The position numbers and the translations under genes were made by a program. The notes below the pieces were generated by a model. It ran no database searches. It was given only the letters and a program-made list of their open reading frames with translations, and had not been told where the DNA came from. 39,504 nucleotides of DNA from a virus: the IMG/VR virus record IMGVR_UViG_3300021375_000068, positions 1 to 39,504 of that record; one strand, given 5' to 3'. Shown here piece after piece: positions 3,721 to 21,455 of the stretch (positions are counted from its first letter, which is position 1; the number at the start of each line of letters is the position of its first letter).

Positions 3721-4279
3721 CTAATATCTTCATATGTAATGATACTAACATAGCGTAACTGACTGAATGTGATTTTTTAAAGAAGTATTGATCGTCATTC
3801 GCTACCCAAACTTCTTTGGCTATTTCACTCCATGTCTTACCTACTAAGTGTCTCTTCGCTGGTCTTATCAAAGCTAGAAACATTGCCATCCTTGGTATTG
3901 AATCTATTTCTAAGTCGCATACTAGGTCATAATGATTACCAATGTGTATGATTTGTTCAAAGAATGTTCTATCTTTTAACTGATGCCACGGTGTTGGGCG
4001 AGCCATTAGTTCATCATAGTGTTTCTGATCCCGTATTAACTTATAGATATTAACATTAAGAAAGTCTAACTTAAAGTAACCACGTTGTTCTGCTGACTGA
4101 TAATCTATACTTGCTGTATCTGTTAATGGGTTATAAGGTATATCTGTTACATACACACCTGAGTTATGCTTACGTATGCCTTGTTCATTCTTCTGCATCG
4201 CATTAGTATGTTTAACTAATTTCAGTGCGTCATCTCTGTCAGCAAAGTCTATGTCTACGTCTGTAGAATATTTTACCAT
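3692..4279 (-). CDS. Small protein with DnaE (Pol III alpha) catalytic-core motifs
   Basis: A 195-residue protein whose first 80 residues read like a compressed palm domain of bacterial DNA polymerase III alpha. TDVDIDFADRDDAL (residues 6-19) matches the family's PDxDIDF...RD motif with two catalytic Asp (D9, D11). HNSGVYVTDIPYNPL (38-52) matches the HAxGVVI...PL region. GYFKLDFLNVNIYKL (67-81) matches the KFDFLGL motif with the third Asp (D72). A true DnaE has well over 100 residues between these motifs and exceeds 1000 residues overall; here about 60 residues separate them and no fingers, PHP or OB domains are present. The start has a GGAAAGCAGG Shine-Dalgarno. Homology is proposed; activity is doubtful. 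Confidence 0.45.
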   Translation of the reverse strand: MVKYSTDVDIDFADRDDALKLVKHTNAMQKNEQGIRKHNSGVYVTDIPYNPLTDTASIDYQSAEQRGYFKLDFLNVNIYKLIRDQKHYDELMARPTPWHQLKDRTFFEQIIHIGNHYDLVCDLEIDSIPRMAMFLALIRPAKRHLVGKTWSEIAKEVWVANDDQYFFKKSHSVSYAMLVSLHMKILDESLRTQGQ

Positions 4280-4965
4280 CCTGCTTTCCCTAACATTTCT
4301 TTCATATATTCTGTATCACCTGGATAGTCTCGCAGTATCTTTGACCAACGATCAGGATTAATAAAGTCATATACCATGGCTATCTGCTCTTGGTTTAAGT
4401 TTTCTAACAAGTCGTGTCCTGTAGCACAATTAAATATAGTCCATCCTGTTATCTTACCCGAAGCTATATATTGGCAAAGCTTATTGGTGTTACCGTGACG
4501 TAAGAAGTCTTCACTTGGTGCTCCGGCTTCTTCACTCCAGTCAAGTGATGTTTCTAATGCTCTAGTCAATGCGTCTGTGGCGTTTTCTCTGTAGATATAT
4601 TCTTTAAGAAACTCATCATATATTTTATCACTGCCCCAATAATCTATACGCTTGTTATTTTTCAATAACCATTCAGTAAATCTGATAGTGTTAATAACTC
4701 GAGCATTAACACAATAATTAGCAAATTTTATAAATGCCTTGTAGTATGCTGATGTTGCGAAGTCATCAAATGTTTTTTGTTTTGCTGAACCCTGTGCTAT
4801 CTCGTAGAACTTTATATAACTCTGAAATGCCATACGACTCGCAGGATCATCTTTGTGTTGAAAGCGTTTCTTTTGTTCACAGACATGCACTGCCAATGTG
4901 CTTTCTCTGGCAAATGATCTTTCACAATAATTACATTTAAAGGTCTGCTTTAATTCGCTTGTCAT
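4273..4965 (-). CDS. Zinc-finger-containing phage protein
   Basis: A 230-residue protein starting with a classical-looking single zinc finger: CNYC (residues 11-14), an aromatic/leucine core and HVC about 12 residues later (Cys2-His-Cys rather than Cys2-His2). The rest is mostly alpha-helical and rich in aromatic and charged residues, with no further motif recognised. It starts with a TAGGATG Shine-Dalgarno, overlaps the downstream gene by 7 nt and the upstream gene by 29 nt, so it sits inside the replication operon between the gp62-like gene and the DnaE-motif gene. A nucleic-acid or replisome adaptor role is a guess based on finger and context. Confidence 0.6.
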   Translation of the reverse strand: MTSELKQTFKCNYCERSFARESTLAVHVCEQKKRFQHKDDPASRMAFQSYIKFYEIAQGSAKQKTFDDFATSAYYKAFIKFANYCVNARVINTIRFTEWLLKNNKRIDYWGSDKIYDEFLKEYIYRENATDALTRALETSLDWSEEAGAPSEDFLRHGNTNKLCQYIASGKITGWTIFNCATGHDLLENLNQEQIAMVYDFINPDRWSKILRDYPGDTEYMKEMLGKAGW

Positions 4966-5410
4966 CCCATCCTAGCTCTTTTACATGTTCCTTAATTGCT
5001 TTTTTATCGTTCATTGACAAAAACATATCAATTTCATCTGACTTCATATTTGGATATAGTTCACTAACTACTTTTCTTTCTTTGTTTGTTGATTTGCCTT
5101 CTTTCTTTTTAGCCGCTAACCAATAATGAAACTGCTTGCCCATGTTAGGACTAACTGTTGTACACATTAACCACTGTAGTTTAGTATGATTGTTTAGGTC
5201 AAAGAAGTGTTTATTGACAAACTTGTTAGTTGCCATCAAATAATATGCCTGTAAATCAGCATTGCCACCTACTGACGCACCATAACGTAACATCAAATAT
5301 GTTGAAAACTTTTTCTTTTGTTCATCAGTAAATTTATCATAATAGTCTCGGTCTTTACGATCATATGCCGCCATTTCATTACCAATGTATAAAGGATCAG
5401 TATTAGCCAT
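4937..5410 (-). CDS. Possible clamp-loader small subunit (gp62-like)
   Basis: A 157-residue, helical, charged protein beginning MANTDPLYIGNE. The middle part (NKFVNKHFFDLNNHTKLQWL, then FHYWLAAKKK) and the C-terminal ELYPNMKSDEID...DKKAIKEH recall the layout of T4-like gp62 clamp-loader A subunits: an N-x-x-N/hydrophobic-H helix pair, a K/W-rich stretch, then a YxxxxxDxI helix. The resemblance is weak and no gp44 or gp45 lies in the window, so this is a tentative call. Its first 35 bp are duplicated almost perfectly 705 bp upstream, on the far side of the SGNH gene. Its ATG overlaps the SGNH stop as TAATG. Confidence 0.35.
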   Translation of the reverse strand: MANTDPLYIGNEMAAYDRKDRDYYDKFTDEQKKKFSTYLMLRYGASVGGNADLQAYYLMATNKFVNKHFFDLNNHTKLQWLMCTTVSPNMGKQFHYWLAAKKKEGKSTNKERKVVSELYPNMKSDEIDMFLSMNDKKAIKEHVKELGWDDKRIKADL

Positions 5411-5411
5411 T
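5377..5411 (-). repeat. Direct repeat copy A: 5' end of the 157-aa gene
   Basis: 35 bp covering the start codon and first ~11 codons of the gene ending at 4937. It matches 6082-6116 at 34 of 35 positions (A versus T at one site) in the same orientation. The two copies bracket the SGNH gene. Confidence 0.9.
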
Positions 5412-6084
5412 ACACATCCAAACTATCTAATATATGATTCAAACACATGTTTGCAAAGCTCTCCTGTATTTCTTCACTGTCTACATGGAATGATGGTTCA
5501 GGTCCGTTACTATGAGTCCATAAATTTAACGGTATTTGTGTTAATTTATGATCTAACAAAGGATTAGCTATGTAATTTTTCTCATATATTGTTTTGCTAA
5601 TCGACCTTAACCCGCCGTCCATCCAGCAATAACCTATATTTCTATTTTTTAAATATTCCAAACAAAACCCTGCTGTTATAATATTCTGCATATCAACTAC
5701 TTCTTGATCAACAACACTGTCCCCATTTTCTGATCGAACATGTAGCATTGATTCTGTATTTAGAGTATAACGTTTTCTGTTCCAATTTACAATATCTTCT
5801 GGATTAAGACTTCTAGCAGGGTCACCAGAGTTTCTTTCTGTTTCAATTCTATTACTGCCAGTAAACAATAATATTACAAAGTCTGGATTATACATCATAC
5901 CTTGTAACATCTGCTGAGCTATTGCTCTATTGCTAGAACCCTCACTTGCTAAGTTATATAATTTCCAGTCAACAATTGGAAAACTATTAGCTATCTTTTG
6001 GCTAAAATGCAGGCCTGGATATCTAGGATCGTCTTGAGCGAAACTATCTCCGCATATCAAAACTTTTTTAGTTTGCGATTCCAT
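5410..6084 (-). CDS. SGNH-hydrolase-like protein (copy 2), probable inserted gene
   Basis: A 224-residue protein with block I as VLICGDSFAQDD near residues 8-19, EGSSNRAIAQQ (block II-like) and ILLFTGSNRIE (block III-like, G-x-N). The usual C-terminal D-x-H-P motif is not evident, so the catalytic triad may be incomplete. The ATG at 6082-6084 is preferred over a TTG two codons upstream. The gene lies between two copies of the 5' end of the next gene, and its own first codons fall inside the upstream copy in a different frame, which marks it as an insertion. It is flanked by a radical SAM gene and the gp62-like gene. Confidence 0.6.
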   Translation of the reverse strand: MESQTKKVLICGDSFAQDDPRYPGLHFSQKIANSFPIVDWKLYNLASEGSSNRAIAQQMLQGMMYNPDFVILLFTGSNRIETERNSGDPARSLNPEDIVNWNRKRYTLNTESMLHVRSENGDSVVDQEVVDMQNIITAGFCLEYLKNRNIGYCWMDGGLRSISKTIYEKNYIANPLLDHKLTQIPLNLWTHSNGPEPSFHVDSEEIQESFANMCLNHILDSLDV

Positions 6085-6116
6085 TACCAATGTATAAAGG
6101 ATCTGTATTAGCCATT
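6068..6116 (-). repeat. Direct repeat copy B: 5' fossil of the 157-aa gene
   Basis: 6082-6116 repeats the start of the gene at 5410 (34/35 bp). Read from its own ATG at 6113-6115 it gives MANTDPLYIGNGIAN and then TAA at 6068-6070, so it is a 15-codon truncated copy. The ATG also overlaps the stop of the radical SAM gene (ATGGCTAA), just as the intact gene would if the SGNH gene were absent. Confidence 0.85.
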
Positions 6117-7145
6117 TTCCATAACCTCATTAAATTCTGGCAGATAATCTGCTATATCTATTTCTTTCAATTGATCTTGTTCACGTAGTTCTTCACACGC
6201 TTTAATAAACTGTTCATCGTGTGCTGTAATATGATTCTCACTGTTTATAAAAGGAACATCTATCTTCTTTTTTACTTCTACAGGTAAACATTGTGGAGAA
6301 AAATACAACGGCTCTGTGACTGGATTAGTATTATGAGGTATTCCTTGACTATTAAACCAATCAATAGTTTCGTTGTAATACATAGCGTTCACGTTGCTTA
6401 CAGTATAACTTATTGCGAGACTGAATCCAAGTTCTTTGAACAAATCAATATTATCTAATAGTTTGTTCCACTTCAGTGGGTATCTCATGTACTCAAATCT
6501 TTTTTCAATACCATCAATACTTAAGACCATCTGTACATTATTAAATTTACTGAGGATTTCTATCTGTTTCGTTGTTAGTTCAACACTTCCGTTAGTTACC
6601 ATATCAATAAAACAATCAGTGTTTCCTAACTCAATCATTTTTTCTAATGTAGCAAAAACTTTTTTATCAATTAATGGTTCGCCGCCAACAAAGCTTAACA
6701 TTACCAACCCGCCCCAATCTATTGAGTCTATCTTTGTTTGATCAACTATGGTAAAAGTTTTTTCTTTTCTTAATGTTGCCCATGCTGAACTAAGTTCACT
6801 GCCACAGGTAACACAGGTAGAATTACAGAGATTAGATATTGCTATTTTTACAGTTTTAGTACTGTAGTTTCCGTTTTTACAATCTTCTTCTATTCTCTCA
6901 ATGTCTCTATCTAAATAAAAATCAAGTGATTTATTTTTTATCTGCCTGTCGCTTTCTATGCTTTTGTCTTCAAGGTCCCAACAAGTTTTACACTCTATAG
7001 GTCTCTCTCCATTTAATAACTGTGTTCTCATTTTATCAATATCTGCAGATCTAGGTCGTATCAAACAACAAGGAATTGTTGTTTCTGAAAAATCAATCTC
7101 TTTATGGTAGAAGATCTTAGAACAAAATGTATCTTTGTTAGACAT
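6108..7145 (-). CDS. Radical SAM protein with extra N-terminal cysteine region
   Basis: A 345-residue radical SAM enzyme. The SAM-binding [4Fe-4S] motif is CNSTCVTC (C107, C111, C114), followed by FVGGEP (about 152-157), the GGE motif that contacts the SAM amino group, and a TIM-barrel-like remainder with VTNGS and LSIDG strands. Upstream are additional cysteines (C8, C26, C27, and CKTC at 52-55), suggesting an N-terminal auxiliary cluster similar to SPASM/twitch-type proteins but placed before the barrel. Its substrate (peptide, nucleotide or sugar) cannot be read from the sequence. It starts by TAATG coupling with the 166-residue gene. Phage radical SAM proteins of this layout occur in marine myoviruses. 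Confidence 0.85.
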   Translation of the reverse strand: MSNKDTFCSKIFYHKEIDFSETTIPCCLIRPRSADIDKMRTQLLNGERPIECKTCWDLEDKSIESDRQIKNKSLDFYLDRDIERIEEDCKNGNYSTKTVKIAISNLCNSTCVTCGSELSSAWATLRKEKTFTIVDQTKIDSIDWGGLVMLSFVGGEPLIDKKVFATLEKMIELGNTDCFIDMVTNGSVELTTKQIEILSKFNNVQMVLSIDGIEKRFEYMRYPLKWNKLLDNIDLFKELGFSLAISYTVSNVNAMYYNETIDWFNSQGIPHNTNPVTEPLYFSPQCLPVEVKKKIDVPFINSENHITAHDEQFIKACEELREQDQLKEIDIADYLPEFNEVMENG

Positions 7146-7645
7146 TAGAACGATAAAGGATAGTTAACAATTTCACAGTTACGGCTTATGTCTTTAACAA
7201 AGTATACACACTCAGGCTCGGGTCCATCGTTGAGAGGTATTGCTAATAGCTGTCCGTTTTTGAGCTTAGGGCTATACCAGGAAACATCTTGATAAACGTC
7301 AACTATCTCAATGTCTAAGAAACTAGGACGAAAGTCAGTTAAACTATTAAACTGAAATGCTCTAAATCCTCTGTCATTGATTGATGTCAATGGTAGTACT
7401 TCTAAATCACCCACATCAGGTTCGCCAATTAATATTTGCCAATCTACAGGCATTTTAATAGTATGTTCGCCTATCTTTAATACCAGTGCTGGTGAATTAA
7501 AACTTTCTAGAAAGATCAACGGAATCCAATGATAATCTGGATCTGTTGGGTTTGAATTATCTAACACACTAAAACGCATATCGTCTATTTCATCTGGCAG
7601 TGTGTCTAAATCGTATCTTGTATTATCTAATGTAAGTATTTGCAT
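7145..7645 (-). CDS. Unknown phage protein
   Basis: A 166-residue, acidic, proline-rich soluble protein. Seen are MPVDWQILIGEPDVGDLEVLPL, then NDRGFRAFQFNSL and WYSPKLKNGQLLAIPL, which look like a compact beta-rich domain; no catalytic motif is recognised. It has its own early promoter overlapping the uvsW 3' end, only 9 nt from -10 to ATG, and couples by TAATG to the radical SAM gene. Co-location with uvsW and replication genes suggests an early function, but none can be assigned. Confidence 0.65.
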   Translation of the reverse strand: MQILTLDNTRYDLDTLPDEIDDMRFSVLDNSNPTDPDYHWIPLIFLESFNSPALVLKIGEHTIKMPVDWQILIGEPDVGDLEVLPLTSINDRGFRAFQFNSLTDFRPSFLDIEIVDVYQDVSWYSPKLKNGQLLAIPLNDGPEPECVYFVKDISRNCEIVNYPLSF

Positions 7646-7654
7646 ATTACCCTT

Positions 7655-7683
7655 ATTTTAAATGACTGAGTTGTGTTTGTCAA
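7655..7683 (-). promoter_or_regulatory. Early sigma-70 promoter (TTGACA-N17-TAAAAT)
   Basis: Consensus -35 TTGACA at 7678-7683, 17-bp spacer, -10 TAAAAT at 7655-7660, directly after the uvsW stop. The -10 ends 9 nt before the ATG at 7645, so the leader would be only 2-3 nt and the AAGGG just before the ATG might not be transcribed from this promoter. Confidence 0.65.
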
Positions 7684-7686
7684 CTA

Positions 7687-9144
7687 TTATTTCCATTCTA
7701 TTTTTTCAACTTCAAATGGATAGTTAGCTTCTCTGTAGAACTTTTTACGTGTTGTTAAATGCCGTTTGGCAAACTTACAAGATGATGTTATATCCCAGAT
7801 TTGAACAAAATCTTTATCTTCTGCTTTTCTGATACCTCTACCGATCGACTGGATAACTCTGACGAAGCTCTTGCCAGGTTCGATGAGGATGAGGTTGAAA
7901 ATTCTAGGTATATTAATGCCCACAGCGGCCACACCGTAAGTAGCAATAATAACCTTACCGTCCATAGTTGCAATTTCGTCATATTCGTCTTTCCTTGCTT
8001 GTGCTTTAGTTGCTCCTGATACAAACACCGAGTTTGGAATCAATTCTTCAAGCATCTTACCTGGTGCTATTCTATCTACTAACACTAAAGTATTACCACT
8101 CTCTTTAATTTTAGTAATTAACTTGCTTATATATTCTAATCGATCCTCGTTCCCTAACAAATATTTCAATTCTTCTTGATAACCGTTATATTCTGCATGA
8201 TCAACTAGTTGAGCAATATTTACATGACAGTTAGCCAGTACTCCTTCTTGCTGTAATTCATTAGCTGATAACTTTCCTATCACATCACCTATACTACATT
8301 TAAGACTCATACGTTCATATTCTTCTTTGGGTATAGTTCCTGTTAGTCCCCAACGTATAGGTATTTGACTCATAACTCCTGTTAGCAAAGTTTTTAGTGC
8401 GTCTGCTTTGGCCATGTGTACTTCGTCAACCATAACACAGACAACATCTTGAATAAACTCATCTATTGTTATGTCCACTGATTGGTTTCTTGATCCTTTG
8501 AGTAGGATATTAAGACTTTGCCAAGTACATATAGTATGTGTACGTCCGAACTCTTTTCTATCTCCAAAGTAAACACCTACGTCTAATCCCATATTGATAT
8601 AGTCAGCTTCTGTTTGTGTAACTAAACTTTTGTTTGGTACTATAACTATTGTACGACCGTGTGGTTCACAACAAGAACTCAATGCCGCTGTGATCAATGT
8701 TTTTCCAGCACCTGTTGCTATTTCCTGTAGGCATTGTGGATTAGCTAAAAACTTGTTTATAAGTTCGACCTGATAGTCTCGTAACACTATTGGTTCACCT
8801 GCTATTGGATGTCCTTCAGGCCAGGTTAAATGACTATATGTATCTTCTTTGACCTGAGTAAATTCAAACTGTCTTTCATAGTCTCGATAGTCTTCAAGAT
8901 CAACGTCATAGTTATATTGTTCAAGGACTGGTAGTATTTGATCTAATAGATTGATATATGTACTGCCACCCAATTGAAAGTAACCTACTTTGCCATCCCA
9001 TCTGCCTAGTCTAACTGCGGGCATATAGCGAGCACCTGGAATCTCAAACTTAAACATGTCCACTAATTTTTTGCGAACATCTAAATCAAGTCCTTCAATT
9101 TTTACATTGACTTCATCTTTAATATGTAATAATGCTTGTTTCAT
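7687..9144 (-). CDS. uvsW: UvsW-like SF2 DNA/RNA helicase
   Basis: A 485-residue superfamily 2 helicase (T4 UvsW is about 500). UvsW unwinds R-loops and branched DNA and switches T4 replication from origin to recombination mode. Residues 1-115 form the small N-terminal domain with RLGRWDGKVGYF. Then come RDYQ (Q-like motif, about 122-125), Walker A ATGAGKT (143-149), VDEVH (239-243), the LTGT motif III, and motif VI QSIGRGIRK near residue 435. The ATG at 9142-9144 follows a TTGACA promoter so closely that the mRNA would be almost leaderless. It is the downstream neighbour of an AAA+ ATPase gene. Confidence 0.92.
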   Translation of the reverse strand: MKQALLHIKDEVNVKIEGLDLDVRKKLVDMFKFEIPGARYMPAVRLGRWDGKVGYFQLGGSTYINLLDQILPVLEQYNYDVDLEDYRDYERQFEFTQVKEDTYSHLTWPEGHPIAGEPIVLRDYQVELINKFLANPQCLQEIATGAGKTLITAALSSCCEPHGRTIVIVPNKSLVTQTEADYINMGLDVGVYFGDRKEFGRTHTICTWQSLNILLKGSRNQSVDITIDEFIQDVVCVMVDEVHMAKADALKTLLTGVMSQIPIRWGLTGTIPKEEYERMSLKCSIGDVIGKLSANELQQEGVLANCHVNIAQLVDHAEYNGYQEELKYLLGNEDRLEYISKLITKIKESGNTLVLVDRIAPGKMLEELIPNSVFVSGATKAQARKDEYDEIATMDGKVIIATYGVAAVGINIPRIFNLILIEPGKSFVRVIQSIGRGIRKAEDKDFVQIWDITSSCKFAKRHLTTRKKFYREANYPFEVEKIEWK

Positions 9145-9151
9145 AATATGT

Positions 9152-9181
9152 AGTATACACTAAAAGGAGAAAGGGTGTCAA
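9152..9181 (-). promoter_or_regulatory. Early sigma-70 promoter (TTGACA-N18-TATACT) of uvsW
   Basis: -35 TTGACA at 9176-9181 and -10 TATACT at 9152-9157, 18 bp apart. Seven nucleotides separate the -10 from the uvsW ATG, so transcription would begin at or one base before the start codon. The -35 overlaps a hairpin arm and loop. Confidence 0.65.
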
Positions 9182-9196
9182 CCAACAACACCCTTT
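9170..9196 (-). terminator. Hairpin after the AAA+ ATPase gene, overlapping the uvsW -35
   Basis: A perfect 9-bp stem: AAAGGGTGT (9170-9178) with ACACCCTTT (9188-9196), loop 9 nt. On the minus strand it is followed by TCTCCTTTTAG, so only a weak T tract. It may act as a partial terminator for the ATPase transcript; the uvsW -35 TTGACA spans the loop and one arm. Confidence 0.5.
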
Positions 9197-9214
9197 TATG
9201 AATAACAAAAAGAA

Positions 9215-10021
9215 CTATCTACGTTTCATACAAGTAACTTCAGCCATTTCACGCCAACTAACTGGTGAAACTTTTCTGAGGTCGCCTATTTTAAGTGCCA
9301 TACGCAGGCTTAGTTCATTTAAGTTATCTTGGTTATCAGTCATAAAGTTTAACATTTCGTCAACTTCATGTCCTGAGAAATCATAGTCTTGAAACAGAGC
9401 ACCTGTACCAGCAATCTGTTTGATACGTAATAGTTTATCACGCACAGTGTCAAGTGTAAGATCTAAGTAGTGACATCTTGATTGAACAGCTTCTAAATGA
9501 TCTTTAAGTTTTTTACTTCTAATATTATCAAACTTGATATTAGTAATAAAGATTGCAGAACCTTTAAACTCAAACTCATCAGGTACACCTTCATTACGTA
9601 ACTTATATGAATCAGTGTTCCAACATATTTTACGAGTCTTCTTACTATCAAGTGCGGCCTTTAGGATATTTAATGATAGCTCATCTTGTAGCACCGAATC
9701 ACAATCATCAAATACTAAAACATTATCTTTTTCTTTGTAGTTGAATAGTTTAGTATATAACCCAATAGCTGACATAGCACCTTTCACTACATCAAATGTT
9801 CTAGGTCTTGAACTTAATTCAGTGTATACGTTAGCCTTGTCAAGTTGCTGTTCAACACCGTATGACTTACCCACACCCGGAGGGCCTACTACGATCATAG
9901 CTCTAACATCACCATTGATGCAGGCTTTAGTCATCTGGTCAAGAATATTAAAACGCTTGCCAATACGTTCAATAATTTGATCGTCTGTTTCTTTTGTGAA
10001 TTTAATTGCCTTAGCTACCAT
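9215..10021 (-). CDS. AAA+ family ATPase
   Basis: A 268-residue P-loop ATPase. Walker A is GPPGVGKS (46-53), Walker B VLVFDDCD (101-108), and a sensor-I-like strand AIFITNIKFD lies near residue 160. It lacks the zinc and clamp-binding features of T4 gp44, so it is not the usual clamp loader; it may load or remodel a DNA or protein partner in replication. Its own strong early promoter lies 42 bp upstream and a GGGGG Shine-Dalgarno-like tract precedes the ATG. It lies directly upstream of uvsW. ATPase identity is certain, the biological role is not. Confidence 0.8.
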   Translation of the reverse strand: MVAKAIKFTKETDDQIIERIGKRFNILDQMTKACINGDVRAMIVVGPPGVGKSYGVEQQLDKANVYTELSSRPRTFDVVKGAMSAIGLYTKLFNYKEKDNVLVFDDCDSVLQDELSLNILKAALDSKKTRKICWNTDSYKLRNEGVPDEFEFKGSAIFITNIKFDNIRSKKLKDHLEAVQSRCHYLDLTLDTVRDKLLRIKQIAGTGALFQDYDFSGHEVDEMLNFMTDNQDNLNELSLRMALKIGDLRKVSPVSWREMAEVTCMKRR

Positions 10022-10062
10022 GTTATCTACCCCCGTAAATGATTAATTTCTAACTTAAAAAC

Positions 10063-10091
10063 ATTATAGCAGTTTTGGATTTATTGGTCAA
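10063..10091 (-). promoter_or_regulatory. Early sigma-70 promoter (TTGACC-N17-TATAAT) of the ATPase gene
   Basis: -35 TTGACC at 10086-10091, -10 TATAAT at 10063-10068, 17-bp spacer. The -35 is formed by the last codons of the 64-residue gene. Most of the spacer and the -10 (AAAACTGCTATAAT) are identical to the promoter at 10306-10334. Confidence 0.85.
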
Positions 10092-10275
10092 CCGAATTCA
10101 GTGAAGCGTTTCTCATTAGATCATATACAGCTTCTAAGTCTTGATCTGATATTGCTATACCTAACTTCTGTAGTTCTATTTCTAACTTACCTGAGATATC
10201 CATGGCGAGCTGATCTATGTCATCATATAAATTAGCATTTATTTTTTCTAAATTATAATCGCACTTAAATGTCAT
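10081..10275 (-). CDS. Small early protein of unknown function
   Basis: A 64-residue acidic, probably helical protein starting MTFKCDYNLEK, with leucine/isoleucine-spaced helices (DIDQLAMDISGKLEIELQKL) that could support a coiled coil. It has a convincing start: AAGGG Shine-Dalgarno seven nucleotides before the ATG at 10273-10275 and a consensus promoter at 10306-10334. It lies between a 50-residue membrane protein and the AAA+ ATPase. Such small, individually promoted early genes are typical of host-takeover functions in T4-like phages, but none is recognised here. Confidence 0.7.
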   Translation of the reverse strand: MTFKCDYNLEKINANLYDDIDQLAMDISGKLEIELQKLGIAISDQDLEAVYDLMRNASLNSVDQ

Positions 10276-10305
10276 TGTTTACCCTTTATCTCATTTCTTA
10301 ATACA

Positions 10306-10334
10306 ATTATAGCAGTTTTAAATTTTTTAGTCAA
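10306..10334 (-). promoter_or_regulatory. Early sigma-70 promoter (TTGACT-N17-TATAAT) of the 64-aa gene
   Basis: -35 TTGACT at 10329-10334, -10 TATAAT at 10306-10311, 17-bp spacer. It is strongly similar over about 40 bp to the next promoter downstream (10063-10091), indicating a duplicated promoter module. Confidence 0.85.
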
Positions 10335-10337
10335 CCT

Positions 10338-10490
10338 TTAAATTATGCCTGCTCCTTGAAGTAATAGGTCTACTAACATAAAGCCAGCAAGAATAAACAT
10401 AGTAAACAAAAAGGTTTTAGCTACTCCATTTATAAAATTTACCTGTTGAAACATTCTTTTTAAATTCTTTTTATCATTAGGTGTTAACAT
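10338..10490 (-). CDS. Small single-span membrane protein
   Basis: A 50-residue protein, MLTPNDKKNLKRMFQQ at the N-terminus. A basic N-terminal segment (two lysines, KR) is followed by one hydrophobic stretch of about 20 residues (TFLFTMFILAGFMLVDLLL), so it is predicted to sit in the inner membrane as a single-pass protein. The start is supported by AAGGAG seven nucleotides before the ATG at 10488-10490 and by a perfect-consensus early promoter just upstream. It is the first gene of the early block that leads to the ATPase and uvsW. A role in host takeover or superinfection exclusion would fit size and timing but is not shown. Confidence 0.75.
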   Translation of the reverse strand: MLTPNDKKNLKRMFQQVNFINGVAKTFLFTMFILAGFMLVDLLLQGAGII

Positions 10491-10525
10491 ATAATTCTCC
10501 TTGAGTTTATTTAAATTACTCAGTA

Positions 10526-10554
10526 ATTATACTACATGTTGTGTTTTATGTCAA
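10526..10554 (-). promoter_or_regulatory. Early sigma-70 promoter, full consensus (TTGACA-N17-TATAAT)
   Basis: -35 TTGACA at 10549-10554 and -10 TATAAT at 10526-10531 with a 17-bp spacer: both hexamers match consensus. Predicted start near 10519, giving a leader of about 29 nt with AAGGAG before the 50-residue gene. It lies directly after the late-operon terminator, so it begins a new early unit. Confidence 0.9.
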
Positions 10555-10592
10555 TGACTTTGACTAGATATTGTGTGAATAGCCACAAAAAA

Positions 10593-10610
10593 AGCACTAT
10601 TTCTAGTGCT
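10593..10610 (-). terminator. Rho-independent terminator (usable on both strands)
   Basis: Seven-bp stem AGCACTA / TAGTGCT (10593-10599 with 10604-10610), 4-nt loop, followed on the minus strand by seven T (10587-10593). It lies just after the stop of the 232-residue gene and separates the late structural pair from the early block. Confidence 0.85.
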
Positions 10611-10629
10611 TTCTTTATTTTATCGTATT

Positions 10630-11328
10630 TTAGTTTGCTTGACTCGCCATCCATTCGTCATATGTCATCTGATAACCAGGATCTGTTGTATTTCCTATTA
10701 TATTAACTGATGGATCTAAGTTCCAAATACAAGTAAATGCTGAACCGTTATCAATAATAGGCCACCAACTTGGAGACCATCTCATTGCCCAACCTTCAAT
10801 CTCTTCTCCGTCAATCAACGCATTTCTTCTATCGTCGTTGTCATATTTGAAAACATCAATGGGTCCAATGGTAGTGTTTGCTTTAATCATTATCTGTAGT
10901 TGTTCATCTGATGGACTAGTTAATGATCCTGCTATTAATGCGTTATATATGTCACTACCTAATTTATCCTCACCTAATTCCGTTGCCAAATGTGTTTGAG
11001 CTGATGTTGATATATTAGTTAGATCTGGTGTGTTTTGATCAATCCATGTTCCGTTTAATATTGCTACAGGAAGTAGATTGTATTGTGTTCTGCCTAAGCA
11101 TAGCTCACCGCCGGAGATTGCCAATGAGTATGACAGTTTGCCTATTTGACTTACTGGTAATTCATATTCAAAAAGAAGATTACTTGTTCGTGGTTGGCCA
11201 TCTCTAACTGTTGTGCTGTCTAGCACAGGGCCATCGAATACGACCTGGCCCGCTATTGTTAATGTTGCTACTACATCGCCTTGTTCGGCGTATGCTTGAC
11301 CATAAACCTTAAATCTTCTGTTATCCAA
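10630..11328 (-). CDS. Probable virion protein, tandem paralogue B
   Basis: A 232-residue protein clearly paralogous to its upstream neighbour. Both begin with RxFKVYGQAYAExGDV, share LCLGRTxYN near residue 80, SDxYNALIAGxLT near residue 125, and end with a FTCxWNLDPS motif. This copy has about 20 extra C-terminal residues (after WNLDPS) containing YDEWMASQ. The N-terminal beta-rich segment (VVATLTIAGQVVFDGPV) resembles small carbohydrate-binding modules found on phage particles, but that resemblance is loose. The pair has a late promoter before the first gene and a terminator after this one, so it forms a late two-gene operon. Confidence 0.55.
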   Translation of the reverse strand: MDNRRFKVYGQAYAEQGDVVATLTIAGQVVFDGPVLDSTTVRDGQPRTSNLLFEYELPVSQIGKLSYSLAISGGELCLGRTQYNLLPVAILNGTWIDQNTPDLTNISTSAQTHLATELGEDKLGSDIYNALIAGSLTSPSDEQLQIMIKANTTIGPIDVFKYDNDDRRNALIDGEEIEGWAMRWSPSWWPIIDNGSAFTCIWNLDPSVNIIGNTTDPGYQMTYDEWMASQAN

Positions 11329-11334
11329 TTTTCT

Positions 11335-11982
11335 CTATTCAGCGTCAATAACTGTTGATGGATCTAAATTCCATGTACAAGTAAATGTTGAACCATCTGG
11401 AATGATAGGCCAATTATTAGTGTTTACTGTAGCGTCATCCCATCCTTCTAATGCCGCACCGTCGATTTGAGCACTGCTTCTTTCATCATTATCATCACCA
11501 TATACTGTAAAATCAGTACTGTTAGTGTTTGCCGCTACAATCGCAGTATTTTGTTCATCTGTCGGGTTTGTAAGTGTGCCTGCTATTAATGCGTTATATA
11601 GGTCACTGCCTAGAGCTGATTCACCTAATGTATTTGCTGTATATGTTTGAGCCTCAGCTGATATAGCTGTTGGATCAGGTATATTAGCGTCAATCCAGGA
11701 TTGAGGTATTGTAAGTCCTGTAACACCGTTATATTTTGTTCTACCTAGACAAAGTTCTCCACCTGTAACTGCTAGTGAGTATGCTAAGTTGCCTGTTGTT
11801 GCTTCATCTAATTCATATGTAAAAAGCAAATTACTTGTGTCTGGTGGATTACCTTCTCTATCTGTTGTGGAGTCATTAACTGCACCGTTAAATACCTCTA
11901 CTCCGCCTACAGTCAATACTGCTGTTACATCACCTGATTCAGCGTATGCTTGTCCGTAAACCTTAAATGTTCTATTAGCCAT
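11335..11982 (-). CDS. Probable virion protein, tandem paralogue A
   Basis: A 215-residue protein, first of a tandem duplicated pair. It begins MANRTFKVYGQAYAESGDV and ends with FTCTWNLDPSTVIDAE; the order and spacing of conserved blocks match the next gene along its whole length. No signal peptide or membrane segment is seen. A GGAGAA Shine-Dalgarno precedes the ATG at 11980-11982 and a GATAAATA late element lies 26 bp upstream, overlapping the end of the glycosyltransferase gene. A decoration, fibre or sugar-binding role on the virion is inferred from late control and beta-rich composition. Confidence 0.55.
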   Translation of the reverse strand: MANRTFKVYGQAYAESGDVTAVLTVGGVEVFNGAVNDSTTDREGNPPDTSNLLFTYELDEATTGNLAYSLAVTGGELCLGRTKYNGVTGLTIPQSWIDANIPDPTAISAEAQTYTANTLGESALGSDLYNALIAGTLTNPTDEQNTAIVAANTNSTDFTVYGDDNDERSSAQIDGAALEGWDDATVNTNNWPIIPDGSTFTCTWNLDPSTVIDAE

Positions 11983-21398: not shown

Positions 21399-21455
21399 TT
21401 ATATATTGTTACCAAAATTACTTACGTCAATTGGTTTTGCCATATATAATCTCCA
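21399..21455 (-). repeat. Fossil copy of the uvsX 5' end
   Basis: From an ATG at 21441-21443 this reads MAKPIDVSNFGNNI and a TAA (21399-21401); intact uvsX begins MAKPFDASKFRKSI. Nucleotides 21413-21444 match the uvsX start at about 25 of 32 positions, and a GGAG Shine-Dalgarno sits 7 nt before the ATG as in uvsX. The last codons and stop of the upstream SGNH gene are read from this same DNA in another frame. Confidence 0.8.

Follow-up and report, generated by a model that had tools for sequence, protein, structure and literature searches.

Morons, known from the lambdoid phages, are extra genes found between core genes that are adjacent in relatives, and they have their own promoter and terminator. 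Another kind of extra gene was described for genes 67/68 of mycobacteriophage Island3 in comparison with Brujita: one of these two near-identical phages contains an additional gene, the end of the neighbouring gene is duplicated over 60 bp, and the authors attribute this to recombination at short sequences in common (Pope et al., 2011, PMC3029335). Boundary-sequence recombination and PeSL cassettes (cited in PMC3029335 and PMC4503421) involve cargo exchange at gene boundaries via short shared sequences. T4-related phages have been proposed to undergo illegitimate exchange and to gain DNA through invading 3' ends (Petrov et al., 2010, PMC2993671).

Here, we analysed a locus in a stretch of 39,504 nucleotides of viral DNA (hereafter the window, meaning that whole stretch). 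By its sequence, the window is assigned to a PA5oct-like large phage, of which it is a 39.5-kb fragment: its terminase is 54% identical to those of Pseudomonas phage PA5oct and relatives; the order of the p166, 157-aa, zinc-finger and polymerase genes (see below) extends to IMG/VR contigs as long as 345 kb; and in PA5oct itself neighbouring genes have the expected sizes, the 157-aa homologue beginning on the final base of the gene before it.

Genes and repeat copies at the locus

The minus strand carries all genes of the locus, which follow one another as p166, rSAM, R1, SGNH, 157-aa gene, zinc-finger-like gene and polymerase-associated gene. The features are as follows.

7145..7645, minus strand: p166, a conserved core gene of 166 aa on the left side of the slot (PHROG 11279, E 1.5e-48)
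7146..7325, minus strand: last 180 bp of p166, with a sharp edge and 30 differences from L003, the closest empty-site relative
6108..7145, minus strand: rSAM, twitch-domain radical SAM gene, 345 aa (NCBIfam NF033640, Pfam PF04055)
6082..6116, minus strand: R1, upstream repeat copy, read as a relic of the 157-aa gene start (its first 34 bp) with the A before it
6068..6115, minus strand: 15-codon frame MANTDPLYIGNGIAN, opened by R1, with its stop at 6070-6068
5410..6084, minus strand: SGNH/GDSL hydrolase-like gene, 224 aa (orthologues in L013 and L044; Foldseek matches to TesA/GDSL esterases)
5377..5411, minus strand: R2, downstream repeat copy, made up of the first codons of the intact 157-aa gene and the A before them
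4937..5410, minus strand: 157-aa core gene right of the slot (PHROG 11758)
21414..21443, minus strand: relic 5' end of uvsX, ATGGCAAAACCAATTGACGTAAGTAATTTT, 30 bp, the second stub

The two core genes delimit the site: p166 was found in every related locus with the slot, and the 157-aa gene is conserved as far as PA5oct. Neighbouring genes overlap by their stops and starts. The p166 stop TAA (7147-7145) overlaps the rSAM ATG as TAATG, the rSAM stop TAA (6110-6108) sits within R1, and the SGNH stop TAA (5412-5410) overlaps the ATG of the 157-aa gene (5410).

The rSAM product scores 215.5 bits against NF033640, above the curated cutoff of 170, which places it in the twitch-domain radical SAM family. 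No homologue above about 32% identity was found in single-protein scans of viral and GTDB contigs or in an alignment-based scan, and in isolate phages the matches were of 24-29% only, in Vibrio phages. The SGNH gene has no Pfam or PHROG match. It is predicted to encode an SGNH/GDSL hydrolase on the basis of its GDS motif and modelled SGNH fold: GDSF is found at residues 12-15, H200 is invariant across three close sequences, and a model built from six sequences (pLDDT 68) matched E. coli TesA in Foldseek with E 1.3e-5, as well as other GDSL esterases; the model from the three close sequences alone was poor (pLDDT 44).

The repeat copies R1 (6082-6116) and R2 (5377-5411) are in direct orientation, 705 bp apart with SGNH between them, and agree at 34 of 35 bases, as the initial annotation had reported. 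This match is far above chance, since elsewhere in the window this 35-mer is matched at 22/35 at best and the maximum in 100 first-order Markov random windows was 24/35; a repeat search of the window recovered the pair as family D9 (5370-5411 and 6075-6116, 42 nt, 93%). The ATG of R1 at 6115 does overlap the rSAM stop, by 8 nt (ATGGCTAA, 6115-6108), and opens the 15-codon frame that had also been pointed out. The last bases of R1 are TAATG, and SGNH starts at the ATG among them (6084); this start is thus inside the 15-codon frame, out of frame with it. R1 is best read as what is left of the 5' end of a 157-aa gene, which agrees with the earlier reading of this copy, and would come from an rSAM-bearing parent. 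It differs at one base in 34 from the allele of relative L033 and also at one in 34 from R2; R1 therefore need not derive from R2, and a close foreign donor suffices.

Two further features of the window were observed. Positions 10630-11982 contain two neighbouring paralogous genes with stretches 70-82% identical, a tandem duplication. At 3745-4104, a tract of the polymerase-associated gene is 58-77% identical to relatives that match it at 99-100% on its 5' side, and it appears to be a separate replacement.

Allele series of the p166/157-aa junction

Comparison with IMG/VR relatives distinguished four allele states: empty; p166-SGNH-157-aa gene; a deleted SGNH fossil; and rSAM and SGNH stacked, as in the window. 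In the empty state, found in the closest of 67 relatives of the 157-aa gene (L001-L008, 94-96% aa identity) and in others, p166 is joined to the 157-aa gene via TAATG with a single copy of the gene start, and the flanks are up to 99-100% identical to the window in DNA. The initial annotation had anticipated such single-copy sites. It had also expected the rSAM stop to be joined there directly to MANTDPLYIGNE, an arrangement not found in close relatives: those without SGNH are also without rSAM, so the empty site joins p166 (7145-7645), not rSAM, to the 157-aa gene.

In L013 and L044, SGNH is located between p166 and the 157-aa gene, with neither rSAM nor the repeat. These orthologues are 79-82% identical to that of the window in amino acids (dN/dS about 0.14-0.16). 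The p166 stop overlaps the SGNH ATG (TTTTAATGGAAGC in L013, TCTGATGGAAGC in L044) and the SGNH stop overlaps the following ATG as it does in the window, while their 157-aa gene begins MADKSSPLYIGN, not MANTDPLYIGN. The fossil is found in L043, where the SGNH start is joined straight to the SGNH end, as would be expected from a deletion between two copies of AGATAGTTT, read from the SGNH gene of the window. No SGNH relatives other than these three were found in viral contigs, and none in isolate phages. Together, the L013/L044 alleles and the L043 fossil indicate that the SGNH/157-aa junction is ancestral and that SGNH insertion there did not make the repeat. The suggestion that the SGNH gene was the insert, entering at the start of the 157-aa gene and rebuilding its 5' end, is thus probably wrong.

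A survey of the site covered 82 non-identical junctions. In 41 of them p166 leads directly into the 157-aa gene, and the other 41 hold extra sequence of about 50-2100 bp; the upstream stop overlaps the start in 70 of the 82. The p166/157-aa junction is a cargo slot in which translational coupling is mostly preserved. When L048 is compared with L045, a different rSAM is seen to have entered cleanly at the start codon of the 157-aa gene: both overlaps have been remade and there is no stub. Overlap of this gene's start with an rSAM, one from another subfamily, was seen only in the distant phages L048 and L050.

Further observations concern other phages. Distant SGNH genes (24-26% identity) directly precede the 157-aa homologue in L094 (5869-6531), L132 (5884-6537) and L095 (4129-4728), so that this slot has received cargo of one type in these phages too, through either old orthology or repeated loading. 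On the 132-kb contig of L019 (G002), several radical SAM matches cluster within about 7 kb (4547-11910). The uvsW-p166 junction is a second variable slot, with an SGNH-like gene in L014 (3700-4489) and another gene in L012 (2510-3149). The junction of the 157-aa and zinc-finger genes is a third variable slot of the operon: in L034, L035, L039 and L044, about 900 bp separate the two genes and contain an accessory gene, and the last codons of the 157-aa gene are replaced. In addition, uvsW is split at a similar place by inserts of ~1.3 kb in L024 (2447-3704), L028 (1048-2305), L091, L107 and L131, possibly an intein or an intron with an endonuclease.

Origin of the seam

With the SGNH/157-aa junction old and clean, the new seam would be the passage from rSAM through the first 34 bp of the 157-aa gene into SGNH. 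R1 ends ...ATTGGTAATG and then runs on as SGNH. R2 reads GGTAATGAAATGG, the R1-SGNH passage reads GGTAATGGAATCG and the p166/SGNH passage of L043 reads TTTAATGGAATCA; the 157-aa gene reads ATTGGTAATGAAATGG and the p166/SGNH junction of L043 TTTAATGGAATC. Joining the 157-aa gene to p166/SGNH through the shared TAATG yields the window sequence exactly, and these 5 bp are the only exact sequence common to the proposed parents at the joint. Such little homology is what an illegitimate mosaic joint calls for, as is an uninterrupted arrangement elsewhere, here present in half of the surveyed junctions and in the closest relatives. Of the parental arrangements, the SGNH-only allele exists in L013 and L044; a p166-rSAM-157-aa parent without SGNH was not found among close relatives. 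We also asked whether homeology to the SGNH start is highest at the joint. This held for a chosen 12-mer (10/12) and failed for 14-20-mers, at which length sites elsewhere in the 157-aa gene match the SGNH start equally well or better, and it was dropped as evidence. Microhomology at the TAATG joint is consistent with these data, not proven.

We consider it likely that the rSAM and SGNH alleles were stacked by off-register recombination, with R1 as a hitch-hiking stub. In some PA5oct-like lineages the p166/157-aa slot would have been taken by SGNH, in another by a radical SAM gene. An rSAM-bearing molecule would have been broken 34 bp into its 157-aa gene, at ...ATTGGTAATG, and this end joined via the common TAATG to the p166/SGNH junction (...TAATGGAATC...) of an SGNH-bearing molecule, and the crossover on the p166 side would probably have been ordinary homologous recombination. 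R1 would then be the 5' stub of the 157-aa gene of the rSAM parent, and the intact gene, from R2 on, would have come with SGNH. The rSAM parent, the order of arrivals and the enzymes that would have made the joint all belong to this model. The last arrival was most likely rSAM, not SGNH. The diverged p166 tail beside rSAM suits an incoming tract composed of p166 tail, rSAM and stub: the 30 differences from L003 in the last 180 bp compare with 3 between two empty-site relatives, L003 and L007, and the tail (7146-7325) is a probable incoming tract. This patch could also be an unrelated exchange, the genome being mosaic elsewhere too.

A second stub precedes uvsX. At 21399-21443 (minus strand), the 30-bp relic of the uvsX 5' end is fused to the end of an SGNH-like gene, whose stop (21424-21422) is inside the relic, as the rSAM stop is inside R1. 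The relic matches foreign alleles (L155, L185) at 28 of 30 bases and the uvsX of the window itself at 25 of 30. L225, the closest relative there (uvsX 100%), has ssb, a promoter-like region and uvsX, with no g318/SGNH-like insert and no relic. A foreign-like uvsX stub favours stubs arriving with cargo. No donor of the uvsX-side SGNH-like gene emerged from a scan. When relatives were compared with themselves and the 5' ends of their ORFs were scanned, over about 240 loci, no convincing further stub appeared, and two weaker matches (25-26 of 36) were rejected, being located in repeated or unrelated DNA. The stub pattern is thus rare, though found twice in this window. A repeated way of loading genes, as suggested initially, is based on the two scars of this window, which have the same layout; the scanned relatives offer no other.

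The reverse order, which is that of the initial annotation, appears unlikely to us. It supposes that an rSAM-bearing genome (p166-rSAM-157-aa) received SGNH from a p166-SGNH-157-aa donor, through an illegitimate left joint at TAATG inside the 157-aa gene and a homologous right joint in the same gene; R1 would be left from the gene start of the recipient, and R2 would come from the donor. The final sequence would be identical, R1 and R2 are one base apart, and L048 and L050 demonstrate that an rSAM can directly precede the 157-aa gene. However, the 157-aa gene of the known SGNH alleles starts differently, so that an additional crossover would be required to explain R2; the diverged tract is on the rSAM side, in the p166 tail; and the foreign uvsX stub favours stubs brought with cargo.

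The stub may also act on translation. Its start has an SD-like sequence, AAUGAGGUU (-6.3 kcal/mol, spacing 7), the SGNH start has none, and the stop codon of the stub frame occupies positions 14-16 nt beyond the base at which SGNH begins; the stub may therefore couple SGNH translation, ribosomes leaving it and restarting on SGNH. That R1 is a functional 15-codon leader, coupling or regulating SGNH and kept by selection, goes further and seems to us rather improbable, although it is compatible with stacking by off-register recombination. The SD-like site and the position of the stub stop speak for such a role, as does the stop-start coupling of SGNH to p166 in L013 and L044. Against selection, R1 copies codons of the neighbouring gene and is found in one genome only, and its near-identity to R2 is equally expected from a recent scar.

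An assembly chimera of co-occurring strains with different cargo is very unlikely. The window is a single metagenomic contig, no second contig carrying the seam was found, and both cargo types are present in relatives; but the 5 bp common to the proposed parents at the R1-SGNH seam are too short for a k-mer join, so that crossing reads must exist, barring one chimeric read, and a second independent stub at uvsX on the same contig favours biology.

That SGNH is a mobile element and the repeat its target-site duplication is hardly credible in spite of the near-identical direct copies on its two sides, because no duplication flanks SGNH in L013 or L044, the segment has neither terminal (end-to-end) inverted repeats nor a transposase, which is also missing among the slot genes, the SGNH ATG lies within the repeat, and we know of no target duplication as long as 35 bp. 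Transposon or insertion-sequence cargo was rejected on the same observations. Moron-type cargo was likewise rejected, given no excess of promoter- or terminator-like sites and a stop-start overlap on each side of the slot. No homing endonuclease gene is present in the slot; in PA5oct, a Hef-like one is annotated about 3 kb upstream of its 157-aa homologue.

Comparison with known systems

Most phage mosaic joints are too old or too tidy to reveal how a gene was added. Here, one locus offers an allele series (empty, one cargo, its fossil, two stacked) together with a seam that still displays the join, and thus a testable case of gene addition in large T4-superfamily phages, in which ends would join at very short shared sequences inside a core gene. 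For annotators, it is a warning that short frames beginning with the first codons of a neighbour may be recombination stubs, not genes. One could extend this to propose that stop-start overlaps of 4-5 bases (TAATG, ATGA) are general microhomology joints in tight operons, of which R1 and the uvsX stub would be off-register products, some becoming leaders; we regard this generalization as doubtful. If it were true, cargo with the same overlap at both ends could be gained, lost or exchanged with translational coupling kept.

Like morons, the cargo of the window consists of extra genes between two core genes adjacent in relatives; unlike them, it has no promoter or terminator of its own and is embedded in the operon by stop-start overlaps. 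As in Island3, the duplicated end of a neighbouring gene lies beside an extra gene. In Island3 it is the 3' end that is repeated, over about 50-60 bp, whereas the window repeats 34 bp of a 5' end with a joint of 5 bp, and its locus has known single-cargo and fossil alleles. Compared with the PeSL cassettes, the slot has no promoter-stem-loop cassette, and the shared sequence is the stop-start overlap itself. The case of the T4-related phages (PMC2993671) is similar in that a T4-type phage has imported genes beside core genes without signatures of mobile elements, the phage of the window being a PA5oct-like member of the superfamily and not a T4 relative in the narrow sense; a general route was proposed there, whereas the window presents two seams with recognisable stubs. 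The locus appears to be a well-resolved instance of illegitimate recombination giving rise to a phage mosaic, and does not represent a new system.
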